Assembly (NCBI GenBank): GCA_006212115.1
Contig: PDUK01000001.1
Coordinates: 1 to 64,000 of the forward strand
Length of the DNA: 64,000 nucleotides
Direction: 5' to 3'
Source of the DNA: Thalassolituus sp.
GTDB taxonomy: Bacteria; Pseudomonadota; Gammaproteobacteria; Pseudomonadales; Oceanobacteraceae
Position numbers and translations under genes: made by a program. Shown here one piece after another: positions 41,891 to 50,996 of the stretch (positions are counted from its first letter, which is position 1; each line of letters begins with the position of its first letter). The notes under the pieces were generated by a model that had not been told where the DNA came from, did no database searches, and worked only from the letters and a program-made list of their open reading frames with translations.

Positions 41891-42304
41891 CTAACGATTG
41901 GCAACCTGTGAGGCCATACGACAACGCTCAGCTGGCACGAATAATTGCGTCATCAGGTAGTGTTTGAAATCGTCTGGATAGGGTCGTCCTTTCAAGGCTT
42001 CTTCCATACAGAGCAACCAGGCATCCCTTTCCGCCTCGCCAATCTTCAAATGCGCATGAGCCGGTGGAATGGCAATAGGTCCGTACTTCTCACGATATAA
42101 ACGCGGGCCGCCCAGCCAACCACATAAGAACCGAGTTAGCTTGTCACGCGATTCCGTCAGGTCGGCTGGATGCATCTCTCGGATTTGAGATGCTTCGGGT
42201 AAGGTCTCCATAGCGTCGTAAAATGCATCGACGAGGGCTTTAACGCCCTCAAATTCTCCCGCTGTACGGAAGGATGCATCCTCGACGCCATAGGAGGCTG
42301 GCAT
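41891..42304 (-). CDS. Group II truncated haemoglobin
   Basis: A 137-residue globin of the TrHbO (group II) class. It has the YGVEDASFRTAGEFEGVKALVDAFY opening, WLGGPRLYREKYG, probable proximal His83 in PPAHAHLKIG, and WG8 Trp96 in RDAWLLCM. Such globins bind O2 or NO and are linked to nitrosative or oxidative protection. The ATG at 42304 shares one base with the TGA stop of the preceding mksB-like gene (TGATG), so translation is almost certainly coupled. Reading further upstream in the same frame would overlap that gene by 66 bases and give a non-globin extension, so the short form is preferred. Confidence 0.9.
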   Translation of the reverse strand: MPASYGVEDASFRTAGEFEGVKALVDAFYDAMETLPEASQIREMHPADLTESRDKLTRFLCGWLGGPRLYREKYGPIAIPPAHAHLKIGEAERDAWLLCMEEALKGRPYPDDFKHYLMTQLFVPAERCRMASQVANR

Positions 42305-45300
42305 CAGGCAAACTCTTCCATAAAGTCGAGCGAAGCCTGGTGTCGTATTGTGCGGCGATGATTCGCCCACAACTCTTTCACCTTCTCTTGGTTACATTGC
42401 TGCCTGTCGACCAATACCCGGGTTTGTAATTCACCTTTTTTCAGACCACCGGTTAGCGGTACTTTCGAGAATACAAACTGGTTGGATACCAGATCCATAA
42501 ATGGTCCGGATTTACTTGTCGGCATGATAAACAGTAACTGAAGCCCCAGACTTTCTGTGAGGTAGTTAATCACCTCTTTCGAGCGGGTCTCATCCATTTT
42601 AGAGAAGGCCTCATCCACCAGCACAATACGCAGGTGGGTATCGCCTTCATTAAACCGGAATGCCGAAGTAATCGCTGCTGAACGGATGATGTAAGCCGGT
42701 GTTTCCAGCTGACCACCCGAGCCCGTACCGTACTGCGATAGTGCAATGGGATCTTTATTGGCTGGCTGCTTATAAATTTCGTACGAACGGTAATTACGAT
42801 AGTCGGAAATACGCTCGAGTTCACGCATGGCCTTCTGCTCGTCTTCATCAAGCAGCATGTTCATCAATTGATCACGCACTTTTACCGAACTGGCGGACAG
42901 CTCTGCAGTAAACAGTGTGGCACCGTCACCCAAGGATGGGTTCTTAATGACTTCATCGAAAAACTGGAAGTACTCTTTGTACTCAGGTACCCATTCCCAA
43001 TCGAACCAGTAGGTTTCACGGTCGGCACCAAATTGATGGTGCGCCAGCTCTTTGTTCAGGTCTTCGAGGATGCGCTTGCCATCGTTGATAGCCTGATAAA
43101 TAGAGTGACACAGGTTGGTCACAAAGACGTTATTAAAACTCTCACGTAGCTGATGCAGTTTGTCTTGTTTCTCAACCAGAATGTTGTTCTTCAGACGGTT
43201 GTGCACACGCTCGACTTCGCGCTGTAAATCACAAACAGACGTGAAGAACTTGGCACCGTGTTCGTCGCGATAGTCCGGTGTATAGACAATAGAATCGACG
43301 GTCTGGCAGGTCTGGTTATGCTCGGTAATATTACGCTCGATTTCATAAGCGATGGAGTTAAGCTCCTGCGAAACCGATTTACGCAGATTCTCAATCGCAT
43401 CGACCGGACTTTCTTCTGCCTCTTTGTCTGCCTGTTCAAGACGCTTCTCAAGATCGAAATCAGGCCAGATCCCAACAATAGAACGCAGTGCACTCTCTTT
43501 TGCATCGGCGACATCGGAAGTCTGCTCCTGATGTTCGCTAAGCGCTTTTACGCCTTTTTCAGCGTCGTTTAATTGTTGCTGTAAGCGTCCAAGCTCACCA
43601 TCGAGCTCTTTAATCTGAGCATCCAGATCGTCCGCTTTTTCTTTCAGGGCGGTAAACTCATGCTCGATATCTCCGAAGCTGGAAATATCGACGCCCTTAA
43701 GGGAGTTCTCTGCCTGTGTCATTGCATACTGGGTATCCAGCATGGCTTGCATCTGATCGGCAAAGCTCACATGTCGTAGTAGGTTCACTGCATCGAGAAG
43801 CTGCTGAGCCTGACGAAGCTGATAGTTTGCTTCATTGGCGACGTCTTCCAGCATATTCACTTCACTACGCTTGGCCGCCAACGCACGCTCACGCGCACCG
43901 AGACCAAACACAAGATCCGCATCTTCAAGATCGCAACGATAAATAGAATACGCGCCAGAACCCAGACCTTCTTTGGTCACACCGCGGCGTGTCATACGCA
44001 GCGCCTGGATATCGGCGACCTGCTCAACGGTACCGTAACTGGCTTCAAGATAATAACGTGCGGTAGCGTGTTCGAAATCCATCAGGTGAATGATTGAATT
44101 CGATGGAATCTTCATCCGCTCGCTGTCTTTCTTCGCTTTTTCGCCCTGAATAACACGGGCACGACTTCCACCCGGAATCTGGCGAAGAATATGCGCAGCT
44201 TCCGCTTCGAACGCGGACTCAACGATGATGCTGAAACGGGCACCACCGATATAACCTTCAATCGCACTTTGCCAATCCGGGTCGGTGACTTCAACGTAGT
44301 CAGCCAGGACACGAGGCTCTGCCTGAGGACACTCACGCATAATGGCTTCCAATGCCTGACGTACGTATCCGGGATAAGTCGCCTGACGTGCTTCGAGGCT
44401 CGCTATTTCGTTCTGTTTTTGCACCATACGATGCTTAGCTTGTTGTAACTTCTGATCACGGCGATCAGCAACACGTGCAATTTGATCGCGCAGTGATACG
44501 CCGCTGCTTTCAAGCTCAGTATCGTGGAAGCGTTCGCGCCAGCTGTTTACCAGACTCTGCTGCGCACGTGCATCATCGAGGTGGGCTTCCAGCGGTGACA
44601 AATCAATCCAGTCTTTACCAAGCAGCTTGCGGAAGTCGACGGCGCCGTTATCTTTAATGGCCAGTACTTCGCGGGCTTGCTCAGCAATACGCTTACTGCC
44701 GAGAGACGGTATTTCGGCCGCCACATTTGTTTTTTGCAGCGCGCCATAAAGAAGCTCAGTTGCTCGCAAAGACGCCTGCAGCATCTGATCCTGCTCAAGT
44801 AGCGGAATCGCCTGCTGTTGCAGCTTCGCTTTACCGTCGTTCAGCGCCTGTTCGGCAGCGTCTTTATCCTGAAGCGCATCAATACCCTGACGGCGCGCCT
44901 CCATGCTGATTAATTGCTCTCGCACCTGCTTGCGACGATCCTGAGCGACATCCCGCTCTTTCTGCGTTTTATTCAGCGACTCACGAATCTGCTGCTGAAT
45001 TTCTTTCGCGTTGAGATAGTTTTTCTGATCGTTCAGATAGCGACTTCGAGCAGCTGTGTATTCCAGTACGTTGTAGTCGATCCACTGGTCAATGTAGCGT
45101 CCGGCACTGTCACGTGTGCCACTCAGCATCTCAATGGATTCGGCCAGTTTATTGGCATCCGATTCCATCGCATAAATGGTCTTCATCAAATCGGAAACAC
45201 TGCGAATGGCATCGCCCATGTCTTTCGCTTCAAGAATTTCGTTAGCCACGAAACCATTGATGCTTTTGACTGGCTTGTAGGCCATAAACCGCGAGAACGT

Positions 45301-45945
45301 TCGCGCTGCGTTCATCGCTTCCCGCTCTGGAACCGCATCGTTACGACCACGCAATGCGCCATACAAGCGGCGCAGATATTGTTTCTTAGTATCGTACTTT
45401 TCTACGCTGTTCGGATTGATGCGCTGCGACAGATTTTTGGTCAATTTCCCCAGTGGAATCACTTCTTGCTGAGAGTCGTCGATATTGAGGAGAAAATCGC
45501 TCTGGGTCAGCTCTTCACCTGCAACAATAAAAAACTGAATGTCATTCTGTCGCGCCACTGGTGTGCCACCAGCCCGATCCACCGTCGCACTCACGCCAAT
45601 AATGGCCGTAAACGGGTCGCCGCTCTCACCCTGAGTCGGATAGAAAACCGCGGCGAGATAGCCCACTGCGCCGTTAGGTCGCGCGTAACTGCCATCGTCA
45701 CAACCGAGCACATAAGACGCCAGCGTCCGAACATTCTTCCCGCGCCCGCGCTGAGTCGCCTCGTCCTGACCCGGGTTGTAATGGAACAGAGTATCGTGCG
45801 CCGCCGTCATGATGGTCTGGATCGCATCTGCTGCTGTTGTTTTGCCCGATCCGTTACCACCGGACAGCAAGTTAATTGGGCCAAATTCAAATTCGGTTGC
45901 AGGGATATTGCCCCAGTTGATGTAGATAAACTTCTTCAGGAACAT
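42304..45945 (-). CDS. mksB: MksB/JetC-like SMC-type ATPase
   Basis: A 1213-residue SMC-like protein. The N-terminal head has Walker A GGNGSGKTT (residues 29-37) after INWGNIPATEFEFGPINLLS. Long coiled-coil arms (about 270-500 and 690-900) surround a hinge-like globular part near 520-680. The C-terminal head has signature GTGSGGQLETPAYI, Walker B LRIVLVDEAF and the D-loop SKMDE. This is the MukB-like condensin ATPase found in Mks and Wadjet systems, where it loops DNA. It follows the KITE subunit by 6 bases and is followed directly by a globin gene, where Wadjet would have the JetD nuclease. The assignment to the Mks group is firm; the subtype is not. Confidence 0.85.
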   Translation of the reverse strand: MFLKKFIYINWGNIPATEFEFGPINLLSGGNGSGKTTAADAIQTIMTAAHDTLFHYNPGQDEATQRGRGKNVRTLASYVLGCDDGSYARPNGAVGYLAAVFYPTQGESGDPFTAIIGVSATVDRAGGTPVARQNDIQFFIVAGEELTQSDFLLNIDDSQQEVIPLGKLTKNLSQRINPNSVEKYDTKKQYLRRLYGALRGRNDAVPEREAMNAARTFSRFMAYKPVKSINGFVANEILEAKDMGDAIRSVSDLMKTIYAMESDANKLAESIEMLSGTRDSAGRYIDQWIDYNVLEYTAARSRYLNDQKNYLNAKEIQQQIRESLNKTQKERDVAQDRRKQVREQLISMEARRQGIDALQDKDAAEQALNDGKAKLQQQAIPLLEQDQMLQASLRATELLYGALQKTNVAAEIPSLGSKRIAEQAREVLAIKDNGAVDFRKLLGKDWIDLSPLEAHLDDARAQQSLVNSWRERFHDTELESSGVSLRDQIARVADRRDQKLQQAKHRMVQKQNEIASLEARQATYPGYVRQALEAIMRECPQAEPRVLADYVEVTDPDWQSAIEGYIGGARFSIIVESAFEAEAAHILRQIPGGSRARVIQGEKAKKDSERMKIPSNSIIHLMDFEHATARYYLEASYGTVEQVADIQALRMTRRGVTKEGLGSGAYSIYRCDLEDADLVFGLGARERALAAKRSEVNMLEDVANEANYQLRQAQQLLDAVNLLRHVSFADQMQAMLDTQYAMTQAENSLKGVDISSFGDIEHEFTALKEKADDLDAQIKELDGELGRLQQQLNDAEKGVKALSEHQEQTSDVADAKESALRSIVGIWPDFDLEKRLEQADKEAEESPVDAIENLRKSVSQELNSIAYEIERNITEHNQTCQTVDSIVYTPDYRDEHGAKFFTSVCDLQREVERVHNRLKNNILVEKQDKLHQLRESFNNVFVTNLCHSIYQAINDGKRILEDLNKELAHHQFGADRETYWFDWEWVPEYKEYFQFFDEVIKNPSLGDGATLFTAELSASSVKVRDQLMNMLLDEDEQKAMRELERISDYRNYRSYEIYKQPANKDPIALSQYGTGSGGQLETPAYIIRSAAITSAFRFNEGDTHLRIVLVDEAFSKMDETRSKEVINYLTESLGLQLLFIMPTSKSGPFMDLVSNQFVFSKVPLTGGLKKGELQTRVLVDRQQCNQEKVKELWANHRRTIRHQASLDFMEEFA

Positions 45946-45951
45946 GGCTTG

Positions 45952-46908
45952 TTATTCTCCGAACAGACTGACGGGTTTGTTGGTATCGGAATCATCGTCA
46001 TTTGATACGACACTGGAATCAGGCTCATCGCCTTTGTTGTCCGATGCCTCATCAGTCTTATTTTCATCCAGCGGATCGCTTTGAGACGCGTCGGCCTGCT
46101 GCTCTCCGTCTGTGGTTGTTTCTGTTTCTGGCTCTGCGATTTCATCCTGACTTTCAAGATCGTCCTGAGCCTCAGCCGGTTCACTCTGCATATCTGGATT
46201 TTCGTTCTGAGCTTCAGACGCCTCGCCTTGAGCGTCTGACGCTTCGCCCTGAGCATCGGGCGCTTCGCTTTGGTCGTCTTCGTCATCAGAAGCCATCAGC
46301 TCTGTCAGTACTTCATCACTGACATAGCTCATGATCATCGGGCGTATACGAAGCCAGATATCGCCATCATGCACGCTGTCTTCATTCTGCAGCTGTACCA
46401 GACGCATCTGTCGGAGTTTACGGAAAAGCGCTTTCCGCTCGGTGACGTTGTCGGGCAGACTGCGCTTGAGCAGGTTTTTCATAGCAATGGTCAGGCCTTC
46501 CAGAGAGACCATCACACACCCCTGCTCGTCGACTGCACCTTCGCGAAGCGCCTTGTCGTACTGCGCGCGCAACACCAGAATCAATGCTACTTCGCTTTGG
46601 TTTAAACGCTGACGAAACGCGGGGTTACCTGCGTTTTGCTGGTTTTCGTCCATACCTGGCACCTGAGCACCGGGTGGATACAAACGGATAAACTGGAATC
46701 GCTTATCGTGCTGTATACGAATACCGAGAACCGAGAGATATTCGCCCACTAATTCTTCGATACGAACGTAACGGTCGTACAGTGTCTGCTCTACCTGAGA
46801 TTCGTCCCGGCAAATTACGCCGTAGTCTAAAAGTCGTACCAACAGCTCAGAGTAATCTTTCTGGCTGAGGCCTTCTTTTTCCAGTTCCCGATCTATTTCA
46901 TGCAACAT
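45952..46908 (-). CDS. mksE: MksE/JetB-like KITE subunit (DUF4194) with acidic tail
   Basis: A 318-residue protein. Residues 1-205 are winged-helix (KITE) type: [51 protein letters not shown] and [16 protein letters not shown], the DUF4194 pattern. Residues 207-318 are an unusual acidic, disordered tail. It begins with repeats of EASDAQGE and ends KPVSLFGE. The family normally stops near the end of the winged helices. It starts 26 bases after mksF and ends 6 bases before mksB. It should bridge MksF and MksB. Confidence 0.8.
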
Positions 46909-46934
46909 AATTCAATTCTTCTGGCTGGGCTGAT

Positions 46935-48500
46935 TCAGGACTGTTTCTGAACAAGCTCAAAGGTAAAGTGATCTTTTTTAATGAAGTAACCCTCGCCGTT
47001 TTCATCACGAGGGTTGTCATCGTAATCGATGCGAAATTCGAATTCAGACGACAATCCGTCCGCAGCCCCAAGACCGATCGCGTGAGCAACGGCAAGGAAG
47101 TCTTGCGCGGATTCAATCGGTATGTCGCGTGTCGAAATTCGTTTGCCACTACTGAGCTTGCTGCTCATAAAGTGGCGCAATGCTTGTTGGTTAACCAGGA
47201 ACGCCTGATCAAGAACCTGCTGGACGTATATCTCACGCCGCGCGTCCACATCGAAGTCGCCCTTGCCATCGTCCAGAGCCGCTTCAATTTTCTGCCGGGT
47301 CCGGCTGGCGTGAATGCGCACAGAAGCTGGATCGACCAGACGCACCTGCGGCACTTCCATTAGCTCTCCCGCTCGCTCTAATGCGTCCGCCTGTTCTTTC
47401 TCCGGGAGCGACGACAGATGTTTACAGACCGCCAGCACATCGTTGTGTTGCTGCGACGCCAGATAGCTCATCTGACGGATAATGATGTCAGCCCGCTTAG
47501 TAAAGCTTTGGAGGGCACGTCGCAATGCAGGAAGCATAATGTCACTGGCATTACGCATACGCAGTTCGATGCCGTCCAGAATGGTCCACAAGACGGAATT
47601 TCCCTCTTTGGCCAGCTCGGGCAAAAGTTCCCGTAAGCGCTTTTCAGCACGCGCTTTGAACTCAACGTCCTGCTTACGAATACCCTCAATCAGGCCCTGA
47701 ATCTGGTCGCGGTGCTTTTCAACGTTATCGGCGGACAAACGCACAGAAAGATCCGGTTGAAAGCGGTTTTCCATAAAATCGAAAAACGCTTCGCTGGCCC
47801 GCTCAATCAGTAGCTGGTCTTCCATCTCGCGCACGAGGTCGCGCTTGCGCTCTTCCAGCTCGCCAATCACGTCAGTGAAGTCGCTGATAATACGCTCGGA
47901 ATATTCGTAGGCATCAAGCAGGTCGTAGATGTCACCGCGCTCCTGAAAGGATTCCAGAGAGTTACGGGTATTACGGGTATTACGATGACGGGTTCGTGCC
48001 ATCGCTCTGCTTTCTTCGATGAATGGCTCGGTGAACTGCCGGCCATAACGGGTAAATCCAAAGGTGCTCTGCAGGTTGGCTTCGTCGACCTGCTTCTCCA
48101 GCCAGCCAAACTCGATCAGCTGATTCAACACCCAGCCTGCCTGTTCGCGACTGGTGCGGAAACGACTGTCACTGGACTCATCGTCACTGTCGTAGCCATC
48201 TGCTAACACAGGGGCCCGGACCAGCGCCTCCTGAAACACTTCAATCACGGTGTCACGCTGGATAGCCTGTCCGTAGTCGGCACTGCTGGAACTATACAGC
48301 CGCTGGTAGAGTTCTTTCAGACACTCCATCACTTGGGCTCGATACTTACCGGTTAGCGGGCGGAAAAACTGCCCCCGTTCCTGCTCAAAAAACATACGAT
48401 TTCTTATTATTCCAGCGCGGTCAAAGGTCAGTAGATTACTGAAACGGCGAGGCGTTGGCCAGCCCGATGAGAGGCTCGTCACAATGTCGGATTGGCGCAC
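46935..48500 (-). CDS. mksF: MksF/JetA-like kleisin subunit
   Basis: A 521-residue helical protein, first in the operon with mksE and mksB. It starts with a winged-helix-like region (RPLTGKYRAQVMECLKELY, EQAGWVLNQLIEFGWLEK). A long helical middle (IGELEERKRDLVREMEDQLL) and a C-terminal domain ending DHFTFELVQKQS follow. It is the kleisin that links the ATPase heads. It does not look like the DUF3375 form of type I Wadjet JetA. The start is a GTG at 48500 without a clear ribosome site, so the true start could be a little downstream. Its promoter region is shared with the divergent histidine kinase gene. Confidence 0.75.
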   Translation of the reverse strand: MRQSDIVTSLSSGWPTPRRFSNLLTFDRAGIIRNRMFFEQERGQFFRPLTGKYRAQVMECLKELYQRLYSSSSADYGQAIQRDTVIEVFQEALVRAPVLADGYDSDDESSDSRFRTSREQAGWVLNQLIEFGWLEKQVDEANLQSTFGFTRYGRQFTEPFIEESRAMARTRHRNTRNTRNSLESFQERGDIYDLLDAYEYSERIISDFTDVIGELEERKRDLVREMEDQLLIERASEAFFDFMENRFQPDLSVRLSADNVEKHRDQIQGLIEGIRKQDVEFKARAEKRLRELLPELAKEGNSVLWTILDGIELRMRNASDIMLPALRRALQSFTKRADIIIRQMSYLASQQHNDVLAVCKHLSSLPEKEQADALERAGELMEVPQVRLVDPASVRIHASRTRQKIEAALDDGKGDFDVDARREIYVQQVLDQAFLVNQQALRHFMSSKLSSGKRISTRDIPIESAQDFLAVAHAIGLGAADGLSSEFEFRIDYDDNPRDENGEGYFIKKDHFTFELVQKQS

Positions 48501-48560
48501 TCCACAATTGATCGCGAAGGAGTATACTGGCCCATATCACCAAGCGCCCCAAGCAAAGGA

Positions 48561-50996
48561 ATGTCTGTGTTCGGTTTCCCCTATTGCGGTCCCTTTCCGT
48601 CTGTTCTGCTCACCGTTCTGGTGTCGGTTTTGTTATCGCTGCTGAGCCCTCTGTCGAACGCCTCTGAGATGGCCGAGTTCAATACTTACTCTGGCTCAGT
48701 GACACTGACACCCGGCGAATCTGTACTCGCGGGCAAGCACTGGCGGTACATTGAGACATCGCAACTGACACCCGAGAAAGTACACACCCAGCTGGCGTCT
48801 CTGGATGTAGTTACAGCCTGGCAGCAAAGCACGGAAGACTACCTGAACCTGGGCATGGCACATGACGGCTATTGGCTCACCCTGTCAGTTACATCCGAGG
48901 AAGATGGGCAGTGGTACCTACGCAACCGCTATTCCCTGTTGGATCTCGCGATTCTGTTCCAGTGCCCGCACGGCGTCACTGATAGCAGCCAATGCTCCGT
49001 CACTCGGGGCGGAGACCGGATTCCTTACCACGAGCGGGTAATAGACCACCCTAATCTGATTCTTCCGGTGGATGTTTCCGCGGGCCAGACCTACGACCTG
49101 TACCTGTACGTCACCACGGAAGGAACCTATCAGCTGCCGATGGAGTTTGTAGGGCAAGAACAGCTTCAGGAGCAGTTAATCCATAACGGCGTGTTCCGGG
49201 GTGCGTACTACGCCGTGATGCTGGCGATGGCTCTGTATAATCTGGTTCTCTTTTTCGCAGTCCGAGACCGGCTCTACCTCTATTACACTGCCTTCGTCTC
49301 CAGCTTCCTGTTCTTTCATATGAACTTTGAAGGGTCGGCCTACGGTTACTTCTGGCCCGACTCACCCGAATTGAACAGTTTTATGGTGCCGCTTACCTTC
49401 GCCATCAGTCAGTTCTTTTTTGCTCTGTTTCTGCCACAGCTGCTGTACCTGAGAAACTACTGCCCGAAAGCCGATATGGTGTACCGGATTTATGTTCCTG
49501 TGACACTGGCATTTGCAGTGATGTCCTTTGCTGCGCCGTATCAGACCGCAGTAAGTTGGCAGAATTACGTCAACTCCTTCCTGGCCATTTATACCTTGAT
49601 TGCGGGTATACGCGCCTGGACGCAAGGACACAAGCCAGCGAAGTACTTCACCCTCGCCTGGCTGGCGTTCATGGTGGGTGTGGTGTCTGCCAACCTGAGT
49701 GCACTCGGCATTATTCCCGGCACGCCGCTCGTGCTCTATGGCTATCAGATCGGCTCTGTCTTTGACGTCATTCTGATCTCTCTGGCGATGGGCGCCCGGA
49801 TCAATATGCTGCGTGATGCCCGTGAACGAGACCAACGGCGCCTCACGGACAGTCAGAACGAATCCATCCGATTATTGAAGCAGTACGAAGACCTCTACCA
49901 GAATTCACTGTCAGGACGCTTCCAGCTGAACAGTCAATGCGAAGTCATAGGATGTAACCCCGCTTTTGCCAGCATTCTTGGATTCCGTAATGTCGATGAG
50001 GTGCTGCAGGTCAAACCGCACCTCGACCAACTCATCGAAACACCACAAGCCTCGATAGAACTGTGGGATGTTTTGGAACGCCATACGCAGGTCAGTGGTT
50101 ACGAGCTGACGCTGATGCCTAAACGTGGATCAGCCGTCAAAGCCATCCTTACCATGCGCCGGGATAAACGCGGTGACGATGCATGTTGGGCGGGCTCCTT
50201 CCTCAATGTGACCGAAAAATACGAGCAAGAAAACGCCCTGCAGAAGCTACAGGAAAACCGTCAGGCCTCAATGCAACAGCTGGTTATGGGTGTATCTCAT
50301 GAAATGAATACGCCCCTGGGCAATATTCGACTTGCTGCCACTCACATACAGGACCGAGTAGAGCACGACGTCACGCAGATTGATCCTGACTTCAAGTCAG
50401 CGATACACCAGGTCAACGACAACATAGCCCGGCTTGCTGATCTGAATAAGCTGATTCAGTCATCGATGGGCGATACTTCATCGCAGCAGCCAGACAGTAT
50501 TTACCTCAGATCCTGGTTCTCAACCTGGACAGAAGACACCCTGAAACGCTACCCCAAGCTTGAGCTGGAAGTCATTAGTTACCCTGATACGGCACTGTGG
50601 CGCGGTCAGGTTACGTTGCTGGAGCGGGTACTGAATCAACTGACAGACAATGCTGTAGTGCACAATGGCGAGGTGTATAACGGCACCCAACTCTACGTCC
50701 GGGTATCAGCGTCACTGGAAGACGACTCACTGACGATTGAGTTCCAGGACAATGGCCGCGGTATCAGTGCCGATGCCAAGGACAAAATTTTTATGCCGTT
50801 CTATACGACACGCCGCGCAGAAGCGACAAAGAAAGGATTAGGCTTGTACGAGGTTCATAATCTGGTGACGCACGTCATGGGCGGCAGCCTAAACTGTCCG
50901 GATGTGAATCAGGGTTTTGCTATTCAGATTACATTGCCCGAAGTAGAGCAGGAGGTGCGCCCAGCTGGAGATCTCCCCAGCCAGGCGAGTTGGTAA
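48561..50996 (+). CDS. 7TM-DISM sensor histidine kinase
   Basis: An 811-residue membrane sensor. After a signal-like span (VLLTVLVSVLLSLLSPLSNA) there is a periplasmic sensor domain of about 170 residues of the DISM extracellular type. Seven membrane spans follow (about residues 215-430), then a short coiled coil, a PAS domain (about 450-560) and a kinase core. The phospho-acceptor His is in MGVSHEMNTPLGNIR. The ATP-binding boxes are NQLTDNAVVHNG, FQDNGRGIS, FMPFYTTRR and GLGLYEVHNL. No receiver domain or partner regulator gene is adjacent. ATG 48561 begins MSVFGFPY, but AAAGGA abuts it; an upstream TTG at 48492 is possible. Confidence 0.85.
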   Translation: MSVFGFPYCGPFPSVLLTVLVSVLLSLLSPLSNASEMAEFNTYSGSVTLTPGESVLAGKHWRYIETSQLTPEKVHTQLASLDVVTAWQQSTEDYLNLGMAHDGYWLTLSVTSEEDGQWYLRNRYSLLDLAILFQCPHGVTDSSQCSVTRGGDRIPYHERVIDHPNLILPVDVSAGQTYDLYLYVTTEGTYQLPMEFVGQEQLQEQLIHNGVFRGAYYAVMLAMALYNLVLFFAVRDRLYLYYTAFVSSFLFFHMNFEGSAYGYFWPDSPELNSFMVPLTFAISQFFFALFLPQLLYLRNYCPKADMVYRIYVPVTLAFAVMSFAAPYQTAVSWQNYVNSFLAIYTLIAGIRAWTQGHKPAKYFTLAWLAFMVGVVSANLSALGIIPGTPLVLYGYQIGSVFDVILISLAMGARINMLRDARERDQRRLTDSQNESIRLLKQYEDLYQNSLSGRFQLNSQCEVIGCNPAFASILGFRNVDEVLQVKPHLDQLIETPQASIELWDVLERHTQVSGYELTLMPKRGSAVKAILTMRRDKRGDDACWAGSFLNVTEKYEQENALQKLQENRQASMQQLVMGVSHEMNTPLGNIRLAATHIQDRVEHDVTQIDPDFKSAIHQVNDNIARLADLNKLIQSSMGDTSSQQPDSIYLRSWFSTWTEDTLKRYPKLELEVISYPDTALWRGQVTLLERVLNQLTDNAVVHNGEVYNGTQLYVRVSASLEDDSLTIEFQDNGRGISADAKDKIFMPFYTTRRAEATKKGLGLYEVHNLVTHVMGGSLNCPDVNQGFAIQITLPEVEQEVRPAGDLPSQASW

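Follow-up and report, generated by a model that had tools for sequence, protein, structure and literature searches.

Organization of the locus

Four consecutive genes on the reverse strand of the window, the 64,000-nucleotide stretch of Thalassolituus sp. DNA that we analysed, encode the kleisin, KITE and SMC subunits of an Mks/Wadjet complex and a truncated haemoglobin; Pfam and PADLOC searches bear out all four identities and positions proposed in an earlier note on this DNA. The JetA-like kleisin gene mksF occupies 46935–48500 (− strand) by its longest open reading frame (Pfam JetA PF18982, 1e-28; PADLOC JetA1, 2e-229); its real start is likely the ATG at ~48395, and the match to the PADLOC JetA1 model starts at residue 36. 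Downstream lie mksE (45952–46908, − strand), encoding a JetB/MukE-like KITE protein (DUF4194, 8.6e-36, residues 24–201; PADLOC JetB1, 1.4e-117), and mksB (42304–45945, − strand), encoding a JetC/MukB-like SMC ATPase of 1213 residues (PADLOC JetC1 PDLC00515, 2029 bits over the full length; SbcC_Walker_B, 1.2e-18). The C-terminus of MksE (window 45952–46270) is a long, acidic, repetitive low-complexity tail, the length of which varies among relatives (proteins of 226–330 residues).

The ATPase motifs of MksB are intact, with both Walker A (GGNGSGKTT) and the VDEAF of Walker B (VLVDEAF) falling in invariant alignment columns. Full-length MksB relatives within the order are 45–98% identical, and a phmmer search of MksB against the PDB returned no match. 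By uniting a JetA/MksF kleisin, a DUF4194 KITE protein and a MukB-like SMC in one operon, the locus has the gene set of a chromosomal MksBEF condensin. A gene for a 7TMR-DISM sensor histidine kinase (48492–50996, + strand; Pfam 7TMR-DISM_7TM, 1.3e-45; HATPase_c, 7.6e-18) is transcribed divergently from mksF, and its product is a possible regulator of the mksFEB operon.

The globin and its junction with mksB

The last gene of the operon (41891–42304, − strand) encodes a protein of 137 residues (Bac_globin, 82.8 bits, 2.9e-23). Its closest sequences in the PDB are solved group II truncated haemoglobins (2xyk, 1ux8, 2bkm, 4uur and 1ngk), which upholds the earlier assignment to that group. Residues H83, W96 and F28-Y29 align to 2xyk and 1ux8 and are invariant in ten linked homologues; we take H83 to be the proximal histidine F8, W96 to be G8, and F28-Y29 to be B9/B10 of helix B. 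Compared with known group II proteins (the 2-on-2 haemoglobin 2xyk, Bacillus YjbI 1ux8, 4uur and M. tuberculosis HbO 1ngk), the Thalassolituus sp. globin has the same fold family, length, and positions of the proximal histidine and tryptophan, and differs only in its genomic position. A dN/dS of ~0.06 against close relatives, where it could be computed and with dS near saturation, indicates purifying selection and thus a real gene.

The stop codon of mksB and the start codon of the globin share one base (TGATG), as the earlier note described and as is seen in the junction sequence GTTTGCCTGATGCCAGCC.

Distribution of the mksB–globin linkage

We surveyed 44 genomes of the family, which fall into eight genera (g1–g8); the locus of one of them (G411) is cut by contig ends. 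In five genera, every one of the 21 genomes that could be resolved has the globin immediately after mksB (eight of g1, one of g2, one of g4, nine of g5 and two of g6), including Thalassolituus maritimus, T. alkanivorans, Oleibacter, Bacterioplanes and Oceanobacter-like metagenome-assembled genomes. We therefore reject the idea that the adjacency is limited to the Thalassolituus sp. of the window, an outcome that would have spoken against the earlier note. The arrangement is nevertheless confined to one family. No globin adjoins mksB in any genome of g3, g7 or g8, and none was found next to it in the further genomes with this gene that were checked in the order or in 13 taken from the rest of the class. 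The mksB tree unites the linked genomes in a single clade (support 96/91), which requires one change, a single gain. Linkage has since been kept across five genera, with mksB identity down to 75%, even as the gene content beyond the globin varies. A single gain in a single family, neither repeated nor kept across distant lineages, is not the distribution that marks a functionally linked globin–condensin system.

At 18 of the 21 junctions, mksB and the globin gene overlap by one or four bases; the other three have gaps of 142–180 nucleotides. In one genome (G409, L151), a strong hairpin, CCCTTTCAGTGCAAAGGTGTTTGCACTGAAAGGG, lies directly after the mksB stop codon and before the globin, and is possibly a terminator that uncouples the two genes. 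In a g5 genome (G418:C24, L155), mksB is split into open reading frames of 679 and 535 codons by a frameshift or a sequencing error.

At the other end of the operon, the 7TMR-DISM histidine kinase gene adjoins mksF in the majority of genera with globin linkage, and likewise in g8, where the globin is not linked; the linkage of kinase to mksF is therefore older than that of the globin to mksB.

Globins at the ends of other operons

Irrespective of where it lies, the globin occurs in 43 of the 44 family genomes and belongs to the core gene set of the family as a whole. We compared its neighbourhoods at 80 named loci and in the unlinked family genomes, with the families of ten neighbouring genes confirmed and the other neighbours named from their sequences. 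Throughout genus g3, the globin ends the series hisS-yfgM-bamB-der-globin. In g8 it follows minCDE-pqiA, with or without an intervening gene for a PpiC-type rotamase. In Oceanospirillum the gene before it is yciH (SUI1) or a GIY-YIG gene; Competibacteraceae have argG and a glyoxalase-like gene in that position, and Cellvibrionaceae have rlmB. A same-strand upstream neighbour is present at 59 of 85 distinct globin loci, and at 30 of these 59 the globin gene overlaps that neighbour or lies within 30 nucleotides of it; the neighbour is mksB in 17 cases and another gene in 13. In one genome (G076), the der stop codon and the globin start codon share a single base (TAATG), the same coupling as that of mksB and the globin. 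Found in this way at the tails of unrelated operons, the globin has the behaviour of a passenger at operon ends, staying with whichever partner its lineage gave it.

Probable absence of a JetD/MksG nuclease

A JetD_C profile search found no match in the Thalassolituus sp. genome, with Corynebacterium glutamicum positive as the control, and neither did an MksG profile that we built from relatives in which mksG directly follows mksB, the locus itself included. JetD/MksG is thus likely, if not certainly, absent from this metagenome-assembled genome, which is 84.5% complete. The earlier description of an operon without this nuclease therefore holds, and these two profiles also gave no sign of the JetD homologue encoded elsewhere that would have counted against it.

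Across the family, the MksG profile matches only two of the 44 genomes, both of genus g3 and without globin linkage, and in these mksG is convergent to mksB; the other 42 lack MksG whether or not the globin is linked. Of 70 further genomes of the order that carry mksB, 22 give a match, and in 19 the gene is intact and lies directly downstream of mksB. An mksFEB operon without the nuclease is therefore the usual arrangement, whether or not a globin follows. As g7 and g8, the sister genera, have neither the linked globin nor MksG, the most parsimonious order of events is that MksG became scarce before the globin arrived. The implication of the earlier note that the globin stands in the place of JetD does not survive this comparison, and we reject the globin as a replacement for MksG, given that sister genera without the linkage are also without MksG.

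The JetB docking motif IFDR is missing from MksE both in the presence and in the absence of MksG, which makes its loss uninformative as a marker of nuclease loss. In one genome (G190, L192:3529–3927), a truncated mksG of 132 codons out of ~400 lies directly 3′ of mksB, a nuclease gene in decay.

Globin and mksB phylogenies

The globin tree, built on ~138 columns with fast and uneven rates, follows the mksB tree poorly. With outgroups and g7 in the data set, the AU test rejects a single clade of linked globins (p 8e-9); within the family without g7, the rejection is weak (p 0.03). The globin data also reject a grouping of g2 with g4 (p 4e-4), which mksB joins at 99/96. Within the linked set, the globin tree recovers g1 and g5 as the mksB tree does. 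This conflict may stem from model error, from unlinked globins having been transferred, or from replacement within the slot after mksB; none of these requires a functional link to MksBEF. In two genomes (G416 and G417; L159 and L160), the globins after mksB are unusually diverged, at 51–53% identity to that of the window, and mksB is typical of g5.

Discussion

The locus very probably encodes an ordinary chromosomal condensin of the nuclease-free MksBEF type, to which a globin has been added as a passenger in this clade; chance gene order, not a new machine, most likely explains the pairing. Of the two readings offered in the earlier note, this is the first, and what favours it is that relatives have the globin behind unrelated operons. 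By homology, the MksF kleisin and the MksE KITE protein would bridge dimers of the SMC ATPase MksB, which would handle chromosomal DNA without a JetD/MksG effector. The globin would be a separate small metabolic or housekeeping gene, probably for O2, NO or redox chemistry, that reached the 3′ end of the operon in the ancestor of the five genera. Gene order suggests that it is now expressed from the mksFEB transcript by translational coupling, as it would be at unrelated operon tails in relatives. We infer that globin and condensin do not interact physically.

Several observations sit less easily with a passenger. Linkage in five genera, the tight overlap at most junctions and the changing genes downstream of the globin would also be expected under selection for joint expression. 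The same features could be claimed by the second reading of the earlier note, a haem sensor or NO scavenger tied to a loop extruder, in which the globin would be a functional accessory of MksBEF that senses O2, NO or redox state or guards the ATPase against oxidation, with loop extrusion responding to O2 or NO. What speaks for such an accessory is the conserved linkage, and we regard it as very improbable: the linkage arose once on the mksB tree, most mksB genomes are without it, and in sister genera the orthologous globins are tied just as firmly to other partners, der or the min operon. Moreover, the three junctions without overlap, one of them bearing the hairpin, leave the genes apart, and neither Pfam nor the alignment of linked homologues revealed an extra interaction domain in the 137-residue globin. 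There is similarly little chance that, within this clade, the globin serves as a haem-based regulator or oxidative protector of MksBEF that is co-translated with the SMC for stoichiometry. A search of the literature, including a gene-neighbourhood query, found no link between truncated haemoglobins and condensins. The mismatch between the globin and mksB trees could instead mean that the slot after mksB was refilled more than once by different globins through xenologous replacement, with selection keeping a globin there for its expression level. This idea, which adds to the passenger reading rather than displacing it, is an unlikely but appreciable prospect: it would account for the rejection of a single clade of linked globins and of the g2–g4 grouping, but the alignment is short and its rates fast and uneven, g1 and g5 are recovered within the linked set as in the mksB tree, and much of the conflict comes from g7 and outgroup globins, which are unlinked and possibly transferred themselves.

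Plasmid defence by a Wadjet (MksBEFG) system, with its nuclease encoded elsewhere or replaced by the globin, might be suspected from the PADLOC labels JetA1, JetB1 and JetC1 and from a relative, Thalassolituus maritimus (G179), that has JetD elsewhere in its genome. We nonetheless judge this highly unlikely for the locus. The Thalassolituus sp. genome has no JetD_C or MksG match, and a globin has no nuclease chemistry. The JetD of T. maritimus sits in its own complete JetABCD operon, on a different contig from the mksFEB–globin operon of the same genome, and the SMC of that operon is of a distant type, like those in the order that are ~24% identical to MksB. The existence of this separate, complete Wadjet speaks against mksFEB being the plasmid-defence system of these bacteria. 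When the T. maritimus JetC was used as a query, no match was found in the Thalassolituus sp. genome (G000), in a search run without a control.

A precedent in the literature also favours the reading of a nuclease-free condensin: in Pseudomonas aeruginosa, MksBEF without a nuclease is a chromosome organizer, one that probably originated when JetD was lost (PMC10586767, review). The Thalassolituus sp. locus shares with it the mksF-mksE-mksB order, subunits of the JetA, JetB and JetC types and the lack of JetD at the locus, and adds the globin downstream and the divergent 7TMR-DISM histidine kinase upstream. Wadjet type I (JetABCD, MksBEFG) has homologous kleisin, KITE and SMC genes in identical order, whereas the Thalassolituus sp. 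operon lacks the JetD/MksG Toprim nuclease and its MksB belongs to a subfamily ~24% identical to the Wadjet JetC proteins of other genomes in the order.

More broadly, these results correct an inference from a single genome, in which a conserved, tight overlap of globin and condensin genes resembles a functional unit until a look at relatives places the globin behind several operons unrelated to one another. Nuclease-free MksBEF is also nearly universal in this clade, and a genome that has it can harbour a true Wadjet as well, which should make the clade useful for comparing the two SMC subfamilies. In T. maritimus, JetABCD is directly followed by Gabija genes GajA-GajB and a RadC-like gene (L190, G179:C16:19000–33000), forming a small defence island.
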